From: Melioribacter roseus
GTDB taxonomy: Bacteria > Bacteroidota > Ignavibacteria > Ignavibacteriales > Melioribacteraceae
DNA: 52,516 bases
Assembly (NCBI GenBank): GCA_020722085.1
Contig: DYLN01000008.1
Coordinates: 1 to 52,516, forward strand
Reading direction: 5' to 3'
Both the position numbers and the translations under genes were made by a program. The number at the start of each line of letters is the position of its first letter. Within the stretch, counting starts at the first letter, position 1. Below, piece after piece: positions 23,909 to 52,504 of the stretch. Under the pieces are notes generated by a model. It was not told where the DNA came from, did no database searches, and was given only the letters and a program-made list of their open reading frames with translations.

Positions 23909-24238
23909 TTGAACGAGTTGAAAAAAATCTGCACTGTTAATGAGTTAAAAGAAAATTCCGGCAAAAAATTTTTTGTAGATGACATCGAAATAGCTTTATT
24001 TAAAATTAATGGAGAAATATTTGCCGTCAGTAATATTTGTCCGCATCAAAAAACGCACCTAATTTACGAAGGATTTGTTGAAAACTGTAAAGTGATTTGT
24101 CCTGTACACGGATGGGAATTTGACCTTAGAACCGGCGAACTGGCAAAAGGAAGAAAAGGGTTGGACATATACGAAGTAAAAGTTATCGATGTTGATGTTT
24201 ATGTTAAAGCAGAGCAAAAAGAATTGAAATGGTTGTGA
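23909..24238 (+). CDS. Rieske [2Fe-2S] ferredoxin-type protein
   Basis: A 109-residue soluble Rieske protein. Cluster ligands are in CPHQKTHL (Cys-x-His, about residues 46-48) and CPVHGWEF (Cys-x2-His, about 66-69). It lacks the extra disulfide cysteines of bc-complex Rieske proteins, so it belongs with the ferredoxin or NirD-like group. Start is a TTG; no ATG lies in frame before the first ligand. Its position between an MBL hydrolase and queG gives no clear partner. Confidence 0.85.
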   Translation: MNELKKICTVNELKENSGKKFFVDDIEIALFKINGEIFAVSNICPHQKTHLIYEGFVENCKVICPVHGWEFDLRTGELAKGRKGLDIYEVKVIDVDVYVKAEQKELKWL

Positions 24239-42474: not shown

Positions 42475-43107
42475 ATGGATGAAAAATATTCTAATAATAT
42501 TACCGGGGTGATTCTTGCCGGCGGAAAGAGCAGTAGACTCGGCACAAATAAGGCTCTGCTGAAAATTGACAATGAAACCTTAATTGAGAGAACTTTTTAT
42601 TTGCTGAAGTCGATTTTTAATGAAGTGCTGATTAGTACAAACAATCCTGAAGAATACGATTTTATTGATGCCCGCAAAGTAAAAGATGTTTACCCGACTA
42701 TGGGACCGCTTTCCGGCATCCACTCTGCTTTGAATTCATCCAATAGTAAAAAGATTTTTATATTGTCGTGCGATATGCCTTTTATTATTCCGCCGCTAAT
42801 TAAACATTTATTGAATGTAAGAACAGAAGAACCGATTGTGATTCCTAAAGTAGGACAAAAGACGGAATATTTGTGCGGAATTTATAATAAAAGTCTGCTT
42901 CCGCTGCTTGAGTCGATTTTGCTTGCTGCTGCGAATGCATTGGACAAAAAAGAAGAAGTGAAAAATTCCGCTTTAAGCGTATGGAACTTTGCCGAGCGGG
43001 TCGGAGGCGAGTTTGTTGATATTGAACACGAAAGGTTTTATTTCAATGATCTGTTTTTTAACATTAATACTCAAGAAGATTACGAATATGCACTTGAAAG
43101 ACTGTAA
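42475..43107 (+). CDS. mobA: Molybdenum cofactor guanylyltransferase
   Basis: Transfers GMP to molybdopterin to make the bis-guanine-dinucleotide cofactor used by DMSO-reductase-family enzymes. The 210-residue product has the nucleotide-binding signature GVILAGGKSSRLGTNKALL near residues 11-29, the DVYPTMGPLSGIHSAL motif and the metal-binding LSCDMPF. It lies about 4 kb upstream of a Tat-exported molybdoenzyme that needs this cofactor. No other mo-cofactor genes are in the window. Confidence 0.93.
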   Translation: MDEKYSNNITGVILAGGKSSRLGTNKALLKIDNETLIERTFYLLKSIFNEVLISTNNPEEYDFIDARKVKDVYPTMGPLSGIHSALNSSNSKKIFILSCDMPFIIPPLIKHLLNVRTEEPIVIPKVGQKTEYLCGIYNKSLLPLLESILLAAANALDKKEEVKNSALSVWNFAERVGGEFVDIEHERFYFNDLFFNINTQEDYEYALERL

Positions 43108-43184: not shown

Positions 43185-43577
43185 ATGAAAATAACCCGTA
43201 GAAAATTTATTAGATTTTTATCGGCGCTTATGTCGTTTCCGTTTTTATATGCATTAAATTCTGAAGTAAAGAAGAAAATTGAAAGCGATACCCATAAAGA
43301 AAAAATATATCTTCCGGATGATCTGGGAAACGGAACTTTCTTTTTGAACCCAGTAATTATTGTAAAAGAAAGCACAAATACAAAAGCATATTTGTCGAAG
43401 TGTACTCATCTCGGGTGCTATATAAATAAAGTTGAGGGTGATAAATTGGTGTGTCCGTGTCATGGTTCAGAGTTCAATTTAAATGGAGAAGCAATAAAAG
43501 GACCGGCAATAAAGCCTCTGGAAAAACTTGCAATAAATAAAGATCCCAAAACTGGTAAAATATTTGTCTATGCCTGA
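43185..43577 (+). CDS. Tat-exported Rieske iron-sulfur protein of a bc-type complex
   Basis: A 130-residue protein. The N-terminus TRRKFIRFLSALMSFPFLYA is a twin-arginine signal that may remain as a membrane anchor. The Rieske domain has CTHLGC and CPCHGSEF, that is, both cluster-ligand pairs and the disulfide cysteines of cytochrome bc/b6f Rieske proteins. It lacks the longer linker of canonical Rieske subunits and is short. It overlaps the cytochrome b fusion gene by 8 bp, so the two are almost certainly made together. Confidence 0.9.
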   Translation: MKITRRKFIRFLSALMSFPFLYALNSEVKKKIESDTHKEKIYLPDDLGNGTFFLNPVIIVKESTNTKAYLSKCTHLGCYINKVEGDKLVCPCHGSEFNLNGEAIKGPAIKPLEKLAINKDPKTGKIFVYA

Positions 43578-46332
43578 TCAATCGAATACAGTAAAGAAAG
43601 AATATAAAAAATTATTCGGATTTACATTTGGGCAAATCTCCTTTGGTTCTTTTCTGATAGCTCTTCTCAGCGGTGTAATTCTGGCAATTCCATATGATAT
43701 TACTAAACCATTTGATTCAATTTCACTAATGCTGCTTTCCAATCCTGCTGGGGTTTTATTCAGAAATATTCATTATTGGAGTTCGCAGATTTTTCTGCTT
43801 TTCACACTTCTTCATTTGTATGATCATTTTTTTCTTTCGACTGAGAAGAATGTGAAGAAAGGAGTTTGGCTTCGATTAACGATTTCTATTTTTTTCACAT
43901 TCTTTATTTTGTTAAGCGGATTCATTCTTAAGGGTGACATAGAAGGACTTCAGGCAAAAAGAATATTTACTTCTCTTTTCGATTCAATTCCGATAATCGG
44001 GAAGAATTTGGGATTTGTGTTGTTGGGCAGTGAAAGAGATCACCAAATTTTATACATGAACCATATCGCCACTGCGGCAATATTTTTATTAATCGTAATT
44101 ATTGAGCATGCAAAAACTTACTGGCCGAGAATTTCAGTTGTGCTGTATTTATTGATTCCATCGGTAATAATCGGATATATATTCCCGCCGTCGTTGTTTA
44201 TCGGAAACGAAAGTGTAATAAAAGGTCCGTGGTATTTTGTAGGACTCCAGGAAATTCTTCATTGGATTGATTATCCTGTGATAGTAGTGCTTGTTGTTAC
44301 ACTTCTTTTCTTTTTAGTTTATTATTTGCAAAGGTTCGATGAAAAATTCTCCGGTATTACAAAAAAGTTTTTATTGATTTTATTCTTTTTCTACAGCGGT
44401 TTTTCTATCATTGGTTATTTTTTTAGAGGGGAAAATTGGCAATTTGTTTTACCGTGGGACAATCCGTACTTTGTAAAAACTTCTATTAATCCGGTAACCA
44501 ATATTGAATCCGTTTTCGCTGCGGATTCGCTTCAATCAGAGATTCCCGTTGTACTTGGACACAGAGAGGGGTGCTTAACATGCCATAATAATATTAAAGG
44601 TTTTTCGCATGCACATAATCCGGATGCAATCGGATGTTACTCGTGCCATTCGGGGAATCCGTTTTCTTTAAACAAAAAAGCGGCACATCAAGGAATGATT
44701 TTAATTCCCGGAAACTTTTCCGATGCAAAACAGAGCTGCGGCAATTCCCAGTGCCATCCTCAAATAACCGAACGTATAAATACTACACTCATGACAACTC
44801 TTTCGGGAATAATTGCAGTTGATAAATTTGTTTTTGGTGAATCAAAGAGTCTGGATGAATTTTATAAGGTTGATAATCTTGGACATTCACCGGCAGAAAC
44901 CCATCTCAGAAATTTATGCGTTTCGTGCCATGTCGGAGGCGTGAAAAGTGAATACGGACCTATCAATGAATTATCCCGAGGCGGAGGCTGTAATGCATGT
45001 CATTTAATTTACAGTGATTCCGCAATTCAAGAGTTGAAAAAATTTGGGGAAGCAAAACAAAATCTTAATTCTAAAAAAGAGTTTAACTTTACCGAACATC
45101 CGTCGCTTGCGTTGACAAAAGATGACAACCACTGCTTCGGATGCCATAGCCGTTCGGGAAGAATTTCAACAAATTACGAAGGCTGGCACGAAACTCAATT
45201 AACGCCCGAGGATGTTTCCGGTAAATCGGGATTTAGAATTTTGCAGGATGAAAGAGTATTTCGAAGAACACAGTCAGATGTACATTTCGAAAAAGGAATG
45301 TTGTGTGTAGATTGTCATGATTCCTACGAAGTAATGGGAGACGGAAAATACTATGTGCACAAAGAAAATCAGACAAAAATTCAATGCATTGACTGTCATT
45401 TTACCGGCAAACCTGTCACAAAAAAACTCAGCGAGTTCGATAATGAATCTCTTAAAATTGCAGAATTGCGAAAGACGAATTATTCCGCAAGAGAATATTT
45501 GACTGTAAATGCGACCGGTATTCCGATGGTGAATACATACTACTCTGAGAATGGTACATATTTGATAAAGAAGAAAACCGGCGAACAAGCAGTAATGAAG
45601 CCGCCTGTATTTGATTGTGTCGGAACGAAAGCTCACAAAGATTTGTCGTGCAATTCATGCCATTCAAGCTGGGCACCGCAATGCGTTACATGCCACACTG
45701 AGTTTGATAAAAACGGAACTGCTATTGATCTGCTAACCGAGAAAGAAGTTAAAGGTGAATGGATTGAACGCGGAAAGAATTATCTTGCCGAACCCCCGAC
45801 TCTTGGTGTTAGAATAATAGAAGATGAAAACGGAAAATCAAAAAGAGTGATCAACACTTTTATTGCTGGGATGATTTTAACAATTGATAAAGATAAAAAA
45901 TCCCAAAACGGAGGAGTAATTTTCAAAAGATTATTTGCGCCGACCTTTTCACATACAATTGTAAAAGAAAGTAGAGGCTGCAAGTCGTGCCATAACGATC
46001 CGCTCGCAATCGGTTACGGGAGAGGAAAATTGACATATAAAATTAAGGGAAATAAAAGTGAATGGAATTTTGTACCTGAGTTTCCATCTATTAATTACGA
46101 CGGACTTCCTGAAGATGCGTGGATTGGTTTCTTAAAGGATAGAAAAGGTGAGGCAGCGACAAGAACAAATGCAAGACCGTTTACAGTTGATGAACAAAAA
46201 AGAATCTTACTTGTCGGTACATGTTTAACCTGCCACGATGAAAAATCTTCTTTGATGAGAAAGTCGTTAATTGATTTTGAAGGTTTGTTAAATAAAAGAA
46301 CAAGTAAATGTATTTTACCAAATTGGTATTAA
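43570..46332 (+). CDS. Cytochrome b6-like protein fused to a dodecaheme cytochrome c domain
   Basis: A 920-residue protein in two parts. Residues about 15-310 are a cytochrome b domain with seven or eight helices. One histidine pair is spaced by 13 residues (HYWSSQIFLLFTLLH) and the other by 14 (HIATAAIFLLIVIIEH), the spacing of b6-type rather than mitochondrial bc1 cytochromes. The usual PEWY quinol-site motif reads GPWY. Residues about 330-900 carry eleven CxxCH sites (first at Cys335, last at Cys885) and one Cx4CH (CGNSQCH), so up to twelve c-type hemes. It would pass electrons from quinol via the Rieske protein to a periplasmic heme chain. ATG 43570 is preferred to TTG 43564. Confidence 0.88.
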   Translation: MPDQSNTVKKEYKKLFGFTFGQISFGSFLIALLSGVILAIPYDITKPFDSISLMLLSNPAGVLFRNIHYWSSQIFLLFTLLHLYDHFFLSTEKNVKKGVWLRLTISIFFTFFILLSGFILKGDIEGLQAKRIFTSLFDSIPIIGKNLGFVLLGSERDHQILYMNHIATAAIFLLIVIIEHAKTYWPRISVVLYLLIPSVIIGYIFPPSLFIGNESVIKGPWYFVGLQEILHWIDYPVIVVLVVTLLFFLVYYLQRFDEKFSGITKKFLLILFFFYSGFSIIGYFFRGENWQFVLPWDNPYFVKTSINPVTNIESVFAADSLQSEIPVVLGHREGCLTCHNNIKGFSHAHNPDAIGCYSCHSGNPFSLNKKAAHQGMILIPGNFSDAKQSCGNSQCHPQITERINTTLMTTLSGIIAVDKFVFGESKSLDEFYKVDNLGHSPAETHLRNLCVSCHVGGVKSEYGPINELSRGGGCNACHLIYSDSAIQELKKFGEAKQNLNSKKEFNFTEHPSLALTKDDNHCFGCHSRSGRISTNYEGWHETQLTPEDVSGKSGFRILQDERVFRRTQSDVHFEKGMLCVDCHDSYEVMGDGKYYVHKENQTKIQCIDCHFTGKPVTKKLSEFDNESLKIAELRKTNYSAREYLTVNATGIPMVNTYYSENGTYLIKKKTGEQAVMKPPVFDCVGTKAHKDLSCNSCHSSWAPQCVTCHTEFDKNGTAIDLLTEKEVKGEWIERGKNYLAEPPTLGVRIIEDENGKSKRVINTFIAGMILTIDKDKKSQNGGVIFKRLFAPTFSHTIVKESRGCKSCHNDPLAIGYGRGKLTYKIKGNKSEWNFVPEFPSINYDGLPEDAWIGFLKDRKGEAATRTNARPFTVDEQKRILLVGTCLTCHDEKSSLMRKSLIDFEGLLNKRTSKCILPNWY

Positions 46333-46522: not shown

Positions 46523-46978
46523 ATGCAGACAAGTAAAATGTTGGAATTTTCGGACGATAAGCCTCTTTTTCCTATAAGTACAGCCGCAAAGCTGTTGGAT
46601 ATTTCCGTTCATACCTTGAGAATGTATGAAAGAGAAGGACTCTTCATTCCTTTTAAAAAAAAATCTTCCCAACGTCTTTTTTCAAAATCCGATATCGAAA
46701 GAATTGAGTGCATAAGGAAAGCGATTAAGGAAAGTAAAATCAGCATCAACGGGATTAGGGCGATTTATTCGCTTATCCCGTGCTGGGAAATAAAACATTG
46801 TGCAAAGAAAAGCCGTGATAAATGTCCGGCATACTGGGAACATACTCAACCATGCTGGTCGTACAAGCACGAGGGCAACGATTGCGAAAATCAGAAATGC
46901 CGTGAGTGCAATGTCTATAACGATTATACCGATTGCGGAAAGATAAAAAATCTAATTAAGACTTTGTCGGGGAAATAA
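46523..46978 (+). CDS. MerR-family regulator with C-terminal eight-cysteine module
   Basis: A 151-residue DNA-binding protein. Residues about 16-85 are a MerR winged helix (FPISTAAKLLDISVHTLRMY then EREGLF). Instead of a standard effector helix and ligand domain, the last 65 residues hold eight cysteines with CWEIKHC, KCPAY, PCW, CENQKCREC and CG, a pattern like the two-CW modules thought to bind metal or an iron-sulfur centre. I infer a redox or sulfur-responsive switch. The gene is 4 bp upstream of the psrA-like gene. An internal ATG at 46538 is an alternative start. Confidence 0.85.
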   Translation: MQTSKMLEFSDDKPLFPISTAAKLLDISVHTLRMYEREGLFIPFKKKSSQRLFSKSDIERIECIRKAIKESKISINGIRAIYSLIPCWEIKHCAKKSRDKCPAYWEHTQPCWSYKHEGNDCENQKCRECNVYNDYTDCGKIKNLIKTLSGK

Positions 46979-46982
46979 ATAA

Positions 46983-49190
46983 ATGGAATTATCAAGAAGA
47001 AGATTTTTAAAGTTGACCGGTTTTACAGTTGGTGCCGCTGCTGCTGCAGGAGCATTAAGTCCGCTTGTTAAAGGCGCAAAAAAAGTCAATGAGAAATCCG
47101 GTAAAGCAGAAAAAGGAATTAAAAAAATTCCGACATACTGCAGTATGTGTTTTTGGAAATGCAGCGCAATTGCTTATGTGAGAGACGGACAACTTTGGAA
47201 AATTGAAGGTAATCCCGAAGATCCTTTGAGTAACGGACGGCTTTGTCCGCGGGGAACTGGCGGTATCGGTGCGCATTACGATCCTGATAGACTAAGAGCG
47301 CCGCTTATACGCAAGAGCGAAAGAGGAAAAGAAAAATGGGTCGAAGTTACCTGGGATGAAGCACTTGAGTATGTGGCAAATAAGATGCGAAAAATTAAAG
47401 ACGAACACGGTCCGGAAGCAATTGGATTTTTCAGTCACGGAATCGGCGGAGGATTTTTTAAACATTTGCTGAAAGCTTACGGTACAAACAACATTGCAGC
47501 CCCTTCATTTGATCAATGTCTTGGTCCGAGGGATATTGGATTTGAATTAACATTTGGAGATGTAGTAGGCGGACCGGAACGAACTGATATTGAAAACTCA
47601 AGATGTCTGGTGTTAATTGGTACTCACCTCGGCGAAAATATGCATAACACCCAGGTCCAGGAATTTGCAAAAGCAATTGAGAAAGGTGCTACAATTATTG
47701 TTGTAGACCCGCGGTTATCTACCGCAGCTTCAAAAGCAAAATATTATTTACCGATTAAACCCGGTACCGATCTGGCACTTTTGCTTGCGTGGATAAATGT
47801 TTTGATTTCGGAAAATCTTTACGATAAGGAATACATAAATAAGTATGCATTCGGTTTCGAACAATTGAAGGCTGAAGTACAGCAATACACACCCGAATGG
47901 GCTTATCCGATAACCGGTATCGAACCCGAACTAATCAGAACAACTGCAATGGAAATGGCGGGGAACAGACCTAATACCTTAGTTCATCCCGGGAGGCATT
48001 CAACATGGTACGGCGATGATACCCAGCGCGCACGGGCGCTTGCAATTTTAAATGCGCTTTTAGGTTCCTGGGGAAGAAAAGGTGGATTGACAAATCAAGA
48101 TGTATTTGATATTCCTTCTTATCCTTATCCTCCTTACCCGAAACCGAAAAAGGAAAATGCAGATAATCCCGGCAGAAAATATCCGTTCGGCGGAGCGGAA
48201 GGCTATACAACGGGTTTAAGAGACGCCACAATTACTGGCAAACCTTATCCGATCAAAGGCTGGTTTGTTTATGGTACAAATTTAATTTATTCGCTGCCAA
48301 ATACTGAAGAGACAATTAAAGCAATCCAAAATTTGGATCTGCTTGTTGTGATTGACGTTATTCCAAGTGAGATTGCCGGCTGGGCTGATGTTGTTCTGCC
48401 GGAAGCAGTTTATCTTGAAAGATACGACGAATTGTTTGCTCCGTATTTCAAGCAGCCTTTTGTTTCTTTAAGACAGCCGGTTGTTGATCCGCCAAACGAC
48501 CAGAAACCGGGTTGGTGGATTGCGAAAAAACTGGGAGAAAAACTCGGCTTGCAAGATTACTTTAAATGGAAAGACGCTGAGGACTATCTCGATACAAGAT
48601 TACAAATGGCGGGATTAAGTTTAGCCGAATTGAAAAAGAAAGGTGTGGTAAAAGCGTCTAAAATTCCTTTATACATTGAAGAAGGCTATAAACCTGAATT
48701 CAATACGCCAACAGGCAAAATTGAGCTTTATTCTACCCATCTTGCCGAATTAGGCTACGATCCAATTCCTAAATTTACAAAGCATACTGAGCCGCCGGCA
48801 GGTTATTTTAGACTGCTCTTTGGACGTGCACCCATGCATTCTTTCAGCAGAACTCAAACTAATCCGATTCTTAATAACGTTATGGATACTAATGAAGTAT
48901 GGTTGAATGCCAACGAAGCAGAGAAGCTCGGATTAAAATCGGGCGATTTTATTAGACTAAAAAATACTGATGGCGTTTTGAGTAATAAAGTAAAGGTAAA
49001 AGTCACAGAAAGAATAAGACCCGACTGTGTTTATTTGGTCCACGGTTTCGGGCACGATTCAAAAATGTTGAGGCAGACGTACTTAAAGGGCGCAAGTGAT
49101 TCACAATTAATTACAAAGTATAACATCGATCCCTTGATGGGAGGTACCGGTATGAATGTGAATTTTGTTTCTGTTGTGACGGAGGTTTGA
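46983..49190 (+). CDS. Molybdopterin oxidoreductase, polysulfide/thiosulfate reductase catalytic subunit type
   Basis: A 735-residue periplasmic enzyme of the DMSO-reductase family. The Tat signal SRRRFLKLTGF is followed by a [4Fe-4S] site Cys53-x2-Cys56-x3-Cys60-x27-Cys88. Cys179 (in SFDQCLG) is at the molybdenum-ligand position, as in PsrA and PhsA, which separates it from Ser- or Asp-liganded relatives. Gene order (catalytic, PsrB-type, PsrC-type) is that of Psr/Phs complexes. Adjacent sulfur transport and rhodanese genes support a sulfur substrate. Arsenate, tetrathionate or selenium compounds cannot be excluded. Confidence 0.88.
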   Translation: MELSRRRFLKLTGFTVGAAAAAGALSPLVKGAKKVNEKSGKAEKGIKKIPTYCSMCFWKCSAIAYVRDGQLWKIEGNPEDPLSNGRLCPRGTGGIGAHYDPDRLRAPLIRKSERGKEKWVEVTWDEALEYVANKMRKIKDEHGPEAIGFFSHGIGGGFFKHLLKAYGTNNIAAPSFDQCLGPRDIGFELTFGDVVGGPERTDIENSRCLVLIGTHLGENMHNTQVQEFAKAIEKGATIIVVDPRLSTAASKAKYYLPIKPGTDLALLLAWINVLISENLYDKEYINKYAFGFEQLKAEVQQYTPEWAYPITGIEPELIRTTAMEMAGNRPNTLVHPGRHSTWYGDDTQRARALAILNALLGSWGRKGGLTNQDVFDIPSYPYPPYPKPKKENADNPGRKYPFGGAEGYTTGLRDATITGKPYPIKGWFVYGTNLIYSLPNTEETIKAIQNLDLLVVIDVIPSEIAGWADVVLPEAVYLERYDELFAPYFKQPFVSLRQPVVDPPNDQKPGWWIAKKLGEKLGLQDYFKWKDAEDYLDTRLQMAGLSLAELKKKGVVKASKIPLYIEEGYKPEFNTPTGKIELYSTHLAELGYDPIPKFTKHTEPPAGYFRLLFGRAPMHSFSRTQTNPILNNVMDTNEVWLNANEAEKLGLKSGDFIRLKNTDGVLSNKVKVKVTERIRPDCVYLVHGFGHDSKMLRQTYLKGASDSQLITKYNIDPLMGGTGMNVNFVSVVTEV

Positions 49191-49191
49191 T

Positions 49192-49728
49192 ATGGCTAGG
49201 TATGGAATGGTAATAGATACAAAAAAATGTGTGGGCTGTACTGATTGTGTAATTGCCTGTGAAACAGAGAATAATGTGCCTGTTGGTTTCTCGAGATCAT
49301 GGGTAAATCAAATTGCCGAAGGGAAATTTCCCGATACAAAAATTGAAATTCTTTCCGAACGGTGCAATCATTGCAGTAATGCGCCTTGTGTTCATGCATG
49401 TCCCACCGGTGCAAGCTACATTAACGAGCTCGGCATCGTTTTGGTTGACCACGATAAATGTATTGGATGCAAGGCTTGTGTTTCTGCGTGTCCCTACGGT
49501 GCAAGATATATTCATCCCGAAGGATATGCTGATAAATGCACTTTCTGTAATCATCGTGTAGAAAATGGTGAAGACCCGGCATGTGTTTCTGTCTGTCCGA
49601 CTCACAGTATCTACTTTGGCGATCTGGATGATCCCGGCAGCGAGGTCAATAAATTATTGAATTCCCGCGAACATCATTCGCTTTTGCCGGAAGCGGGTAC
49701 GGAACCGAAGATTTTTTATTTAAGGTGA
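49192..49728 (+). CDS. Four-cluster ferredoxin subunit, PsrB type
   Basis: A 178-residue electron-transfer subunit that would carry electrons between the membrane NrfD-type protein and the molybdoenzyme. Four [4Fe-4S] motifs are visible: CVGCTDCVIAC near residues 13-23, CNHCSNAPCVHAC near 58-70, CIGCKACVSAC near 90-100, and CTFCNHRVENGEDPACVSVC near 117-136. It starts 1 bp after the catalytic subunit gene stop and has no signal peptide, so it is probably co-exported with the Tat-bearing subunit. Confidence 0.92.
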   Translation: MARYGMVIDTKKCVGCTDCVIACETENNVPVGFSRSWVNQIAEGKFPDTKIEILSERCNHCSNAPCVHACPTGASYINELGIVLVDHDKCIGCKACVSACPYGARYIHPEGYADKCTFCNHRVENGEDPACVSVCPTHSIYFGDLDDPGSEVNKLLNSREHHSLLPEAGTEPKIFYLR

Positions 49729-49732
49729 AAAA

Positions 49733-50677
49733 ATGTTTGAATTAACAACAACAAGGCATAATCCTTTAGTTGATCCTTCACTTCACGCTTGGGGATGGGA
49801 AATACCTGTCTATCTTTTCCTTGGAGGATTGGTTGCTGGAATGATGATTATTTCTGGATACTTTATTTTTAGCGGAAGACTAAAAAATCCCGACTGTGCC
49901 TGCAACTTTCTGCCGTTTTACAGCATCGTGTTTTTGAGTGCAGGTATGTTTGCGTTGTTCCTCGACCTTGAAAATAAAATAAATGTCTGGAGACTTTACA
50001 CAACATTTGAAATTACCTCACCTATGTCTCTTGGTGCGTGGATATTAATTTTAGTTTACCCCGCGTTAATTGCGAACATTTTTGTTAGACCGCCGCAGCC
50101 TCTGCTTAACAAGCTGCCGAAAATAAAACTGGTTACAGAAAAGTTAAATCAAAGAAGTTTTCTGATTAAATGGATTGGTGTACTCAATATGCTTTGGGGA
50201 CTTTTGCTTGGTGTTTACACAGGTATTTTGTTGAGTACAATGAGTGCAAGACCATTATGGAATACATCTGTCTTATGGCTGCTTTTTATTGTTTCCGGTT
50301 TATCTTCAGCTGCAGCTTTTGTGCACTTAATTGCGCGTGATAAATATGAAAGAGAATTGCTTGCAAAAGCAGACAATGGATTTTTAACAGTAGAGATTTT
50401 TGTTATAGCTTTGATGTTCATTGGTTTGTTGACATCCTCCCAAACAAATATTGAAGCTGCAAAGCTCCTCTTGACCGGACCGTTTGCTGCTCCGTTTTGG
50501 GTTCTCGTTGTTGGAATCGGCATTCTGATTCCTCTGCCTCTGCAACTGCTTGCAGTAAATCATAAAGTAAAACATACACCGGTTCCACCGCTTATGGTTC
50601 TTTTAGGAGGTCTTATACTAAGATTTGTAATTGTCTATGCAGGGCAATTCAGTAACTGGATGAATGTTCATTTTTAA
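49733..50677 (+). CDS. NrfD/PsrC-type membrane subunit
   Basis: A 314-residue quinone-interacting membrane subunit with eight or nine helices. The first helix pair (GWEIPVYLFLGGLVAGMMIISG) and the SPMSLGAWILILVYP motif are typical of the PsrC/NrfD family. It contains no heme ligands, as usual for NrfD proteins. It starts 4 bp after the ferredoxin gene. It should anchor the complex and exchange electrons with menaquinone. Confidence 0.92.
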   Translation: MFELTTTRHNPLVDPSLHAWGWEIPVYLFLGGLVAGMMIISGYFIFSGRLKNPDCACNFLPFYSIVFLSAGMFALFLDLENKINVWRLYTTFEITSPMSLGAWILILVYPALIANIFVRPPQPLLNKLPKIKLVTEKLNQRSFLIKWIGVLNMLWGLLLGVYTGILLSTMSARPLWNTSVLWLLFIVSGLSSAAAFVHLIARDKYERELLAKADNGFLTVEIFVIALMFIGLLTSSQTNIEAAKLLLTGPFAAPFWVLVVGIGILIPLPLQLLAVNHKVKHTPVPPLMVLLGGLILRFVIVYAGQFSNWMNVHF

Positions 50678-50691
50678 TTTGGAGATAAATA

Positions 50692-51261
50692 ATGACAACT
50701 ATCTTGAGCTTATTTTCTAAAAAAATTAATCTGGAAATAACGGTAATAGAAGCTAAACCTTACTCAAATCCATATTTGGTTGGATTTGGACTGGGGCTGG
50801 TCCTTTTGGCAGCTTTCGTAATAATGGGAAGGGGATTGGGTGCATCTGGTGCAATGTCGAGTGTAGTTGCCGTTACAGTTGAAAAAGCTGCGCCGGATTA
50901 TGCTTCAGAAAATTCATTTTTTGAAACTTATTTAGGTGATGGTACTTCAAGTCCGTTAAAAGATTGGCTTGTGTTTGAAGTGCTTGGTGTTTTAGTCGGC
51001 GGATTTATTTCGGGTTTACTTGCCGGAAGAATTAAAAGAACTGTAGAAAAGGGACCGCGGATATCAACAGCACTTCGACTTGTTTTTGCTTTTGCGGGCG
51101 GGTCATTGATGGGTTTCGGTGCTATGCTTGCACGTGGTTGTACTAGTGGGCAAGCACTCACCGGAGGTGCTCTTCTTAATCTAGGAAGCTGGATATTTAT
51201 GCTGATGGTTTTCGCGGGCGCTTATGCAACGGCTTATTTTGTAAGGAGGCAATGGATATGA
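50692..51261 (+). CDS. YeeE/YedE half-transporter 1
   Basis: A 189-residue inner-membrane protein with about five helices and the family motif LARGCTSGQALTGGALL, whose cysteine lies in the thiosulfate path in full-length YeeE. It is about half the size of the fused YeeE/YedE proteins, and the complementary half is the next gene, which overlaps it by 10 bp. The pair should form a channel-like importer or exporter of thiosulfate or related sulfur. Confidence 0.88.
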   Translation: MTTILSLFSKKINLEITVIEAKPYSNPYLVGFGLGLVLLAAFVIMGRGLGASGAMSSVVAVTVEKAAPDYASENSFFETYLGDGTSSPLKDWLVFEVLGVLVGGFISGLLAGRIKRTVEKGPRISTALRLVFAFAGGSLMGFGAMLARGCTSGQALTGGALLNLGSWIFMLMVFAGAYATAYFVRRQWI

Positions 51262-51860
51262 ACGCACCGTTTTTCAAATTTGGTTTCTTTGGAACAGAAG
51301 TAAGTTTAATCTTTGCTTTTATTATCGGTATTGTTTTTGGCTTTGCTCTTGAAAGAGGCGGCTTTGGTAATGCTAGAATTTTAGCAGCACAATTTTATTT
51401 TACCGATATGCGTGTTCTTAAAGTAATGTTTACAGCAATTGTTACCGCAATGCTGGGTGTTTATTATTTAACATGGATCGGCTGGTTGGACTTATCTTTA
51501 GTTTACTTCAGTGATACTTATATTCTGCCTCAGGCTTTAGGCGGTTTTATTTTAGGTGTTGGTTTTGTAATTGGAGGCTACTGCCCTGGCACTTCGGTTG
51601 TGTCTTTTGCAACGGGAAGATACGATGGACTGATTTTTATACTTGGTGTGATGTTCGGTATTTTTGTTTTTGGTTTAATCTTTCCTTCTATAACAGAATT
51701 TTATTATTCGACTTACATGGGGAAAGTAACTTTGCCTGCCTGGTTGAATATGTCTTACGGCGCCGTAGTGTTTCTGGTTGTAGTTATGGCATTAGGTGCT
51801 TTTGCAGCAGCAGAATGGGGCGAGAAAAAAATGGCTGCTAAAAAAGGAGGCTCAAAATGA
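51252..51860 (+). CDS. YeeE/YedE half-transporter 2
   Basis: A 202-residue inner-membrane protein with five or six helices. The motif GGYCPGTSVVSFATGRYDG contains the conserved path cysteine. Near the N-terminus the usual RxxFC site reads ERGGFGNARI, so the first path cysteine is replaced by glycine. It overlaps the first half-transporter by 10 bp and the rhodanese-like gene by 4 bp, so the three are translationally coupled. Alternative start ATG 51258. Confidence 0.88.
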   Translation: MDMNAPFFKFGFFGTEVSLIFAFIIGIVFGFALERGGFGNARILAAQFYFTDMRVLKVMFTAIVTAMLGVYYLTWIGWLDLSLVYFSDTYILPQALGGFILGVGFVIGGYCPGTSVVSFATGRYDGLIFILGVMFGIFVFGLIFPSITEFYYSTYMGKVTLPAWLNMSYGAVVFLVVVMALGAFAAAEWGEKKMAAKKGGSK

Positions 51861-52504
51861 AGAAATTTTTTTCGCAGCTCAGCATTGCAAAAAAGCTTGG
51901 TATGTTTGCATTGGGTTTTGGTGTTGCAGCTCTTTTTATTGGTAATCCTCAAGACTCAACAAGCATAAAAGTAAATGTAAAGGAACTCGCTCTTTCGACA
52001 GTAAAAGATAAAGATTTGGTCTCTGTATATGATTTAGCTGATTGGATAATCAAAGGCAGTACGGATTTTACACTCGTAGATTTACGCGATAGAAAATCTT
52101 TCAGCGAATATAATATTCCTTCATCCATCAATATTCAAATGCAAGCTTTGCTTAACTCAAATCTTTTGCGTAATCAAAAAATTATTTTATATGGTGAGAA
52201 TGATCTTTCTGCAGCACAGGCTTGGTTCATTTTAAAGAGTAGTGGATATAAGGGAGTTTATATTTTAAGCGGTGGACTCAAAGCATGGAAAGATAAAATT
52301 CTTTTTCCAAAATTAGCAGTGAATACATCTTTGAAAGATTCAGCAAGATTTAATAAAATAAAAGAAGTAAGCAAATTTTTCGGCGGAACTCCTCAAACCA
52401 GTTCTACAGAAGGAAACAATTTGCCGGAAATTAAAATGCCGAAACCGGAAATACCTGCAATGACAAATATGCCGGCTAAGAAGAAAAAAAGAGAGGGCTG
52501 CTGA
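51857..52504 (+). CDS. Membrane-anchored rhodanese-fold protein lacking the active-site cysteine
   Basis: A 215-residue protein: an N-terminal helix (about residues 11-30, KLGMFALGFGVAALFIG) that should anchor it, then a rhodanese-fold domain (FTLVDLRDRKSFSEYNIPSSINI, then SSGYKGVYILSGGLKAWK). In active rhodaneses the loop after the ILYC strand supplies cysteine; here it reads ILYGENDLSAA, with Gly113. The tail is proline- and methionine-rich, then KKKKREGC, ending in cysteine. It may act as a sulfur carrier or an assembly partner rather than a sulfurtransferase. Likely the last gene of this operon within the window. Confidence 0.82.
   Translation: MKKFFSQLSIAKKLGMFALGFGVAALFIGNPQDSTSIKVNVKELALSTVKDKDLVSVYDLADWIIKGSTDFTLVDLRDRKSFSEYNIPSSINIQMQALLNSNLLRNQKIILYGENDLSAAQAWFILKSSGYKGVYILSGGLKAWKDKILFPKLAVNTSLKDSARFNKIKEVSKFFGGTPQTSSTEGNNLPEIKMPKPEIPAMTNMPAKKKKREGC

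Follow-up and report, generated by a model that had tools for sequence, protein, structure and literature searches.

The window analyzed here, a stretch of 52,516 nucleotides from Melioribacter roseus (assembly GCA_020722085.1, contig DYLN01000008.1, positions 1 to 52,516 of the forward strand), carries a Rieske gene followed by an open reading frame (ORF) in which a quinol-type cytochrome b continues into a cytochrome c domain with twelve heme-binding motifs. The stop-free frame extends from 43537 to 46332 on the forward strand and, read from the ATG at 43570, encodes 920 amino acids (920 codons, 43570-46332). Eleven CxxCH motifs stand at residues 335, 356, 450, 474, 522, 579, 606, 694, 705, 804, and 885 and a single Cx4CH motif, CGNSQCH, at residue 390, all twelve within residues 335-889; a sequence scan found zero Cys in residues 1-334. 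The frame and motif scans thus confirm the uninterrupted 920-codon frame with eleven CxxCH motifs and one Cx4CH motif described by the first-pass annotation.

The Pfam Cytochrome_B model covers residues 17-156 (E 1e-13), c7/c3 models match the C-terminal part, and the top Protein Data Bank (PDB) matches of the N-terminal part are cytochrome b6 chains (E 7e-10). The NCBIfam matches comprise (i) ExtP over residues 9-180, with 67 bits; (ii) ExtQ over residues 217-296, weak, with 22 bits; and (iii) ExtM, profile positions 18-594 of 599, over residues 331-908, with 250 bits, a profile that also matches 70 of 70 members of the twelve-heme family. The AlphaFold2 (AF2) model of the whole fusion, based on an alignment of 69 relatives, displays a mean predicted local distance difference test (pLDDT) value of 87.7 and a predicted template modeling (pTM) score of 0.79. 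The linker between both parts, residues 300-320, is variable in sequence and modeled with pLDDT 53-69, and the RGENW motif lies 41-52 residues ahead of the first heme Cys in 74 of 74 fusions measured.

A search of 58 related genomes recovered the arrangement in 11 besides the source genome, at 36-79% identity over nearly the full length, one of the 11 carrying a degenerate form. A scan of ~85,000 species genomes yielded 422 confirmed relatives; the best 80 of the 422, which were fetched, come mostly from Bacteroidales, Ignavibacteria/Melioribacteraceae, and their kin, including the cultured Draconibacterium aestuarii and Maribellus. Exactly eleven CxxCH motifs and one Cx4CH motif are present in 78 of these best 80, the exceptions, L063 and L083, corresponding to a contig end or a broken frame. 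All 99 relatives in the alignment carry the twelve motifs unchanged, so the pattern lies far beyond chance. An assembly or frameshift error joining two genes, against which the first-pass annotation had cautioned, has nothing in its favor beyond the unfamiliarity of the fusion, and its probability is negligible: it is excluded by the same fusion in independent assemblies, namely 11 further genomes of the order and the best 80 of 422 public loci, the cultured Draconibacterium and Maribellus among them. The cytochrome b/twelve-heme fusion is a real gene, present in hundreds of mainly Bacteroidota/Ignavibacteria genomes.

The cytochrome b module and its Rieske partner

The structural match of residues 6-299 of the AF2 model to the cytochrome b of bc/bcc complexes gives a Z score of ~24 and a root-mean-square deviation (rmsd) of 3.5 Å over 283 residues, the module comprising seven transmembrane (TM) helices. 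The b-heme ligands are H68 (43771), H82 (43813), H165 (44062), and H180 (44107), with 13 and 14 intervening residues, and the Qo (quinol oxidation) motif K-GPWY occupies residues 218-222 (44221-44235); all 69 fusions compared keep the four His and P220-W221-Y222 without change. The module shares with the Rieske/cytochrome b superfamily the four b-heme His in helices B and D, a fold of at least seven helices, and the Rieske partner; its Qo motif departs from the PEWY of that superfamily, in which variants exist, the first residue being nearly always G in the relatives. The His spacing and a 4 + 3 helix plan are b6f-like, and in the b6f topology a seven-helix chain ends in the periplasm; the seven helices of the model therefore predict a periplasmic twelve-heme domain. 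Identity with a b6f complex proper was rejected, because the helix A Cys for covalent heme ci is absent (no Cys in residues 1-334), and because both b parts and the twelve-heme domain reside on one chain, with neither cytochrome f nor a separate subunit IV.

The end of the Rieske ORF overlaps the start of the fusion by 8 bases (ATGCCTGA). This overlap and both heme-b His pairs bear out the earlier assignment of a quinol-type cytochrome b with an adjoining, overlapping Rieske gene, and a two-polypeptide complex of the fusion and the Rieske protein is plausible from the gene organization. A Rieske gene lies directly upstream in 63-65 of the 72 fused loci with enough sequence, and Rieske motifs are found near none of the 10 standalone or degenerate loci described below, counts that are uncorrected for relatedness.

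The source genome has a second Rieske/cytochrome b locus, L175 (G000:C227, 896-3678), whose 359-residue cytochrome b bears RPEWYF and whose multiheme c protein, of ~449 residues, is separate; given this second locus, the fusion would constitute an additional, dedicated complex. A further small Rieske-type domain (112-residue frame) lies at 23924-24151 of the window, after a metallo-β-lactamase-fold gene. Elsewhere, L035 (G020:C24, 1-3558) comprises split ORFs for Rieske, cytochrome b (423-residue frame), and multiheme c, only distantly related, and at L082, L091, and L101 the fusion gene is directly preceded by a small ORF that resembles, by eye, the zinc-ribbon N-terminal part of IS1595-type transposases.

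The twelve-heme domain and its standalone forms

Outside the heme motifs, seven His (H349, H373, H445, H510, H572, H689, and H795) are invariant in 99 of 99 sequences, as are M589, M768, K459, K668, C683, and C914, while H597 is kept in 96 and M408 in 97 of the 99. A conserved second His would be available to at most eight of the twelve hemes; at least four are therefore expected to have Met, Lys, Cys, or some other residue as ligand, or to be open. A uniform bis-His wire does not agree with this pattern, and with a conserved second His for no more than eight hemes and with two Lys and two Cys invariant, some of the twelve may be catalytic.

The AF2 model of the twelve-heme domain alone (pLDDT 86.8, pTM 0.86) gave no Foldseek match in the PDB at E <0.001. 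A VIA search with 992 aligned chains returned a single chain at Z ≥2, the octaheme cytochrome c 1sp3 of the tetrathionate reductase family, with eight hemes versus twelve here; this weak match (Z 6.8, 288 residues, rmsd 5.3) lies in the range that the tool states for unrelated matches. TIGR04315, the model of the octaheme tetrathionate reductase family, matched 3 of 70 members (best E 5e-5), so the resemblance is best taken as a lead, not as membership. An identity as MccA-like sulfite reductase was rejected, with chance-level matches only.

The domain also occurs without its quinol module. A standalone, TM-anchored twelve-heme protein lacking both cytochrome b and Rieske is encoded in the same cluster as in the window at five loci (L128, L129, L130, L131, and L158), which keep PsrABC, the YedE halves, and rhodanese, with MobA and/or MerR in some; four more standalone forms (L159, L160, L162, and L163) lack that cluster or have too little flanking sequence to tell. 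At L032 (G028:C26, 8693-11284, reverse strand) the b part has decayed, with H82, H180, and GPWY lost and all twelve c-heme motifs intact; no Rieske gene lies near this locus, and one small Rieske-domain protein was found in its genome. In the unrooted tree of the c domain the standalone forms are nested among the fused ones, requiring at least four changes, and the c tree reproduces 10 of the 11 splits that are strongly supported in the b tree, which indicates that the b and c halves were inherited together. These trees are most simply read as a single old fusion after which the quinol module was lost repeatedly; across the sequences compared, the twelve-heme unit is the constant and the putative quinol-oxidizing module the optional part. 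The first-pass annotation envisaged a minimal complete bc complex with a built-in heme wire, of which the two-polypeptide complex remains plausible; the c domain would not be just its wire, because it stands alone in the same cluster and occurs once beside a degenerate b part and no Rieske gene. The invariant Lys and Cys, together with the standalone forms, argue for a domain that is more than a wire.

Gene neighborhood and related complexes

Table 1. Fusion gene, its modules, and flanking genes in the window
Feature	Position	Strand	Basis or remark
MobA-like molybdenum cofactor guanylyltransferase	42475..43107	+	recurrent neighbor
Rieske protein, 130 aa	43185..43577	+	PF00355 E 5e-12; cluster motifs CTHLGC, CPCHGS; twin-arginine-like N-terminus
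Fusion ORF, 920 aa: b6-like + subunit IV-like cytochrome b, variable linker, 12-heme cytochrome c domain	43570..46332	+	
Cytochrome b module, aa 1-299	43570..44466	+	ExtP/ExtQ matches, cytochrome b fold match
12-heme cytochrome c domain, ExtM-like, aa 331-920	44560..46329	+	ExtM profile, conservation, AF2 model
MerR-family regulator, Cys-rich C-terminus	46523..46978	+	recurrent neighbor, conserved in relatives
PsrA/PhsA-like molybdoenzyme (polysulfide/thiosulfate reductase catalytic subunit)	46983..49190	+	PhsA model 524 bits; twin-arginine-like start
PsrB/NrfC-like iron-sulfur subunit	49192..49728	+	profile matches
PsrC/NrfD-like membrane quinone subunit	49733..50677	+	profile matches
YedE/YeeE-family sulfur transporter, half 1	50692..51261	+	PF04143
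YedE/YeeE-family sulfur transporter, half 2	51252..51860	+	PF04143
Rhodanese-domain protein, hydrophobic N-terminal stretch	51857..52504	+	PF00581

The first-pass description of the locus, exact on the frame, the motifs, and the Rieske overlap, left the sulfur-respiration neighborhood (Table 1) unmentioned. The PsrA neighbor is closest to the polysulfide/thiosulfate reductase from T. thermophilus (2vpw, E 3e-227), and among the 33 loci flanked by 7.5 kb or more on each side PsrA is present in 20, MobA in 19, and YedE in 17. The MerR-type regulator, kept beside PsrA in relatives, displays a Cys-rich end (CWEIKHC...CRECNVYNDYTDC) and may sense a metal or sulfur species. YedE/YeeE is encoded by two adjacent half-length genes, a split also kept in relatives, and at L030 rhodanese is fused in frame to the second half. 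Two other contexts were rejected: Dsr-type sulfite reduction as the partner pathway, DsrA being absent from 13 genomes of the group, and a defense system, with no PADLOC match.

The closest described counterpart is the Geobacter ext cluster (GSU2930-2937), in which the twelve-heme ExtM, the Rieske protein ExtO, the cytochrome b ExtP, and the membrane protein ExtQ are separate proteins (PMC5877670), and which was proposed to encode a bc-type quinol-oxidizing complex, the missing link of Geobacter respiration (PMC2825233). Both systems have in common the parts homologous to ExtP, ExtQ, and ExtM, the heme number, the Rieske partner, and a rhodanese nearby, with separate genes in Geobacter versus one gene here. 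The ExtKL selenoprotein, the porin ExtI, and the ten-heme ExtN were not seen among the scanned neighbors here (MobA, MerR, PsrABC, YedE, and rhodanese), whereas the locus here is linked to PsrABC and YedE. Judged by profile matches and gene order, the fusion is a fused form of P-Q-M beside an O-like Rieske gene. In Geobacter, selenite/tellurite reduction is impaired in extI mutants and, according to preliminary work, in mutants of downstream cytochromes; the ext proteins rise with Fe(III), deletion of extI leaves Fe(III) citrate reduction unimpaired, and extHIJKL is reported as dispensable for Fe(III) oxide (PMC5877670).

Compared to cytochrome b6f, the 4 + 3 helix plan with b6 ahead of subunit IV, the His spacing of 13 and 14, and the Rieske protein are shared, whereas the fusion comprises one polypeptide, displays GPWY instead of PEWY, lacks the heme ci Cys, and carries the twelve-heme domain in place of cytochrome f. 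The statement of the first-pass annotation that canonical complexes keep b and c on separate subunits is true for a twelve-heme partner, but b-c fusions are known: among the anammox Rieske/cytochrome b complexes compared (Kuenenia Kuste3096-3097, Kuste4569-4574, and Kustd1480-1485), Kuste3096 is a cytochrome b fused to a diheme c, two c hemes versus twelve here, while in the b6-like complexes a hexa- or octaheme c replaces cytochrome f as a separate subunit (PMC12954380). The anammox multiheme complexes also carry an NAD(P) oxidoreductase, none of which is seen here. CbcL and the Mco quinol/methanophenazine:multiheme c oxidoreductases of ANME, compared by description only, likewise associate or fuse a membrane cytochrome b with multiheme c and are described as mutually non-homologous (PMC9012536). 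No description of a b6-IV-12-heme fusion was found in the literature searched, most subscription papers lying outside that search. Two-heme b-c fusions and separate multiheme c subunits are thus known, and the b6-IV-12-heme fusion is the fused version of a Geobacter-type complex.

A proposed role in periplasmic sulfur or chalcogen reduction

The fusion, its ExtP-ExtQ-ExtM homology, the conservation, the gene linkage, and the distribution of the modules among loci are direct observations. From sequence, we consider it somewhat probable (about 55%) that the fusion and its Rieske partner form a dedicated menaquinol:multiheme-c oxidoreductase, whose twelve-heme domain would serve the reduction of a periplasmic sulfur, selenium, or tellurium compound together with PsrABC, YedE, and rhodanese. 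The likely role is electron transfer from menaquinol to the twelve hemes for periplasmic sulfur or chalcogen oxyanion respiration. In such a scheme, for which we infer heme occupancy, the direction of electron flow, the Q-cycle, and the substrate, (i) the four-plus-three-helix cytochrome b and the Rieske cluster would oxidize menaquinol; (ii) the Rieske cluster would pass one electron to the tethered periplasmic twelve-heme domain, a stand-in for cytochrome c1/f, and the other electron would cross the membrane via the two b hemes; and (iii) the twelve-heme domain, as the working unit, would gather electrons and either pass them on or itself reduce the compound of sulfur (or of selenium or tellurium), acting together with the PsrABC molybdoenzyme, the YedE transporter, and the rhodanese encoded alongside. 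Loss or decay of the quinol module would have occurred in several lineages, the twelve-heme protein being kept membrane-anchored and fed in another way.

Several points weigh against this proposal. Because the Qo motif, GPWY, lacks the Glu of PEWY, oxidation of quinol at this site is not certain. The NrfD subunit of PsrABC can itself oxidize quinol, which leaves a second quinol oxidase for the same enzyme unexplained. PsrA is missing nearby from 13 of the 33 long-flank loci, which means that the link to sulfur does not hold throughout, and the phenotype of ext mutants in Geobacter concerns selenite/tellurite reduction. The scores of 250, 67, and 22 bits for ExtM, ExtP, and ExtQ lie far below the NCBI equivalog cut-offs of 800, 290, and 150, hence the modules are relatives of these proteins and not the same proteins. 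Finally, the module tree is unrooted, and change counts cannot prove loss over gain.

The same observations bear on other explanations. The fusion might be a pure conduit, a quinol oxidase whose built-in twelve-heme wire carries electrons out to acceptors at the outer membrane or outside the cell (Fe(III), electrodes, or partner cells), comparable to the quinol:cytochrome c step in the extracellular electron transfer of Geobacter, with the PsrABC neighbors independent of it. This unlikely reading draws on the missing-link proposal for the Geobacter homologue (PMC2825233), the rise of the ext proteins with Fe(III) (PMC5877670), twelve heme motifs on one chain, and the loci without PsrA, but conflicts with the PsrABC-YedE-rhodanese cluster retained by standalone proteins that have no quinol module, with only eight conserved distal His for twelve hemes and invariant Lys and Cys outside the motifs, and with the Fe(III) reduction unaffected by loss of extI (citrate) or extHIJKL (oxide) (PMC5877670). 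It is doubtful, too, that the twelve-heme domain is itself a reductase or oxidase of sulfur oxyanions akin to octaheme tetrathionate reductase, with Rieske/cytochrome b only as the electron supply: the single VIA match to 1sp3, the three TIGR04315 matches, the invariant K459, K668, C683, and C914, and standalone forms within sulfur gene clusters are consistent with such an enzyme, yet that Z score falls among those of unrelated matches, Foldseek alone retrieved nothing at its threshold, and most members lack a TIGR04315 match.

Rather improbable is a polyprotein, in which the b and c parts would be made together and cut in the linker into conventional separate mature subunits, as is reportedly the case for the cytochrome b/c1 precursor of Bradyrhizobium, a precedent not found in our literature search. 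The variable linker of low model confidence, which in the window contains SVFAADS, compatible with a signal-peptidase-type site, would suit such processing; against it stand the 41-52 residues between the end of the last helix and the first heme Cys in all 74 fusions measured, a last TM helix that ends ~30 residues ahead of the possible site, far for an ordinary signal peptidase, and the own, different TM anchor of the standalone forms. A more far-reaching and speculative reading, to which we attach low confidence, would make the twelve-heme domain a new multiheme enzyme that catalyzes a reaction of the sulfur/selenium cycle at active-site hemes ligated by Lys, Met, or Cys instead of His. The fusion would then be an electrogenic reductase on one chain, driven by quinol, whose bc-type Q-cycle supplies a covalently attached terminal reductase; lineages that lost the Q-cycle module would run the same enzyme without that energy coupling.

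Hundreds of genomes, mainly of Bacteroidota/Ignavibacteria, thus encode a relative of the bc-type complex proposed in 2010 as the quinol-oxidizing link of Geobacter, a relative made from two genes and largely as a single chain; some of these genomes are from cultured organisms (Draconibacterium and Maribellus) in which it is testable. The fused, degenerate, and standalone forms offer a natural series in which to ask where in the protein the chemistry takes place and whether energy conservation is added by the Rieske/cytochrome b module.

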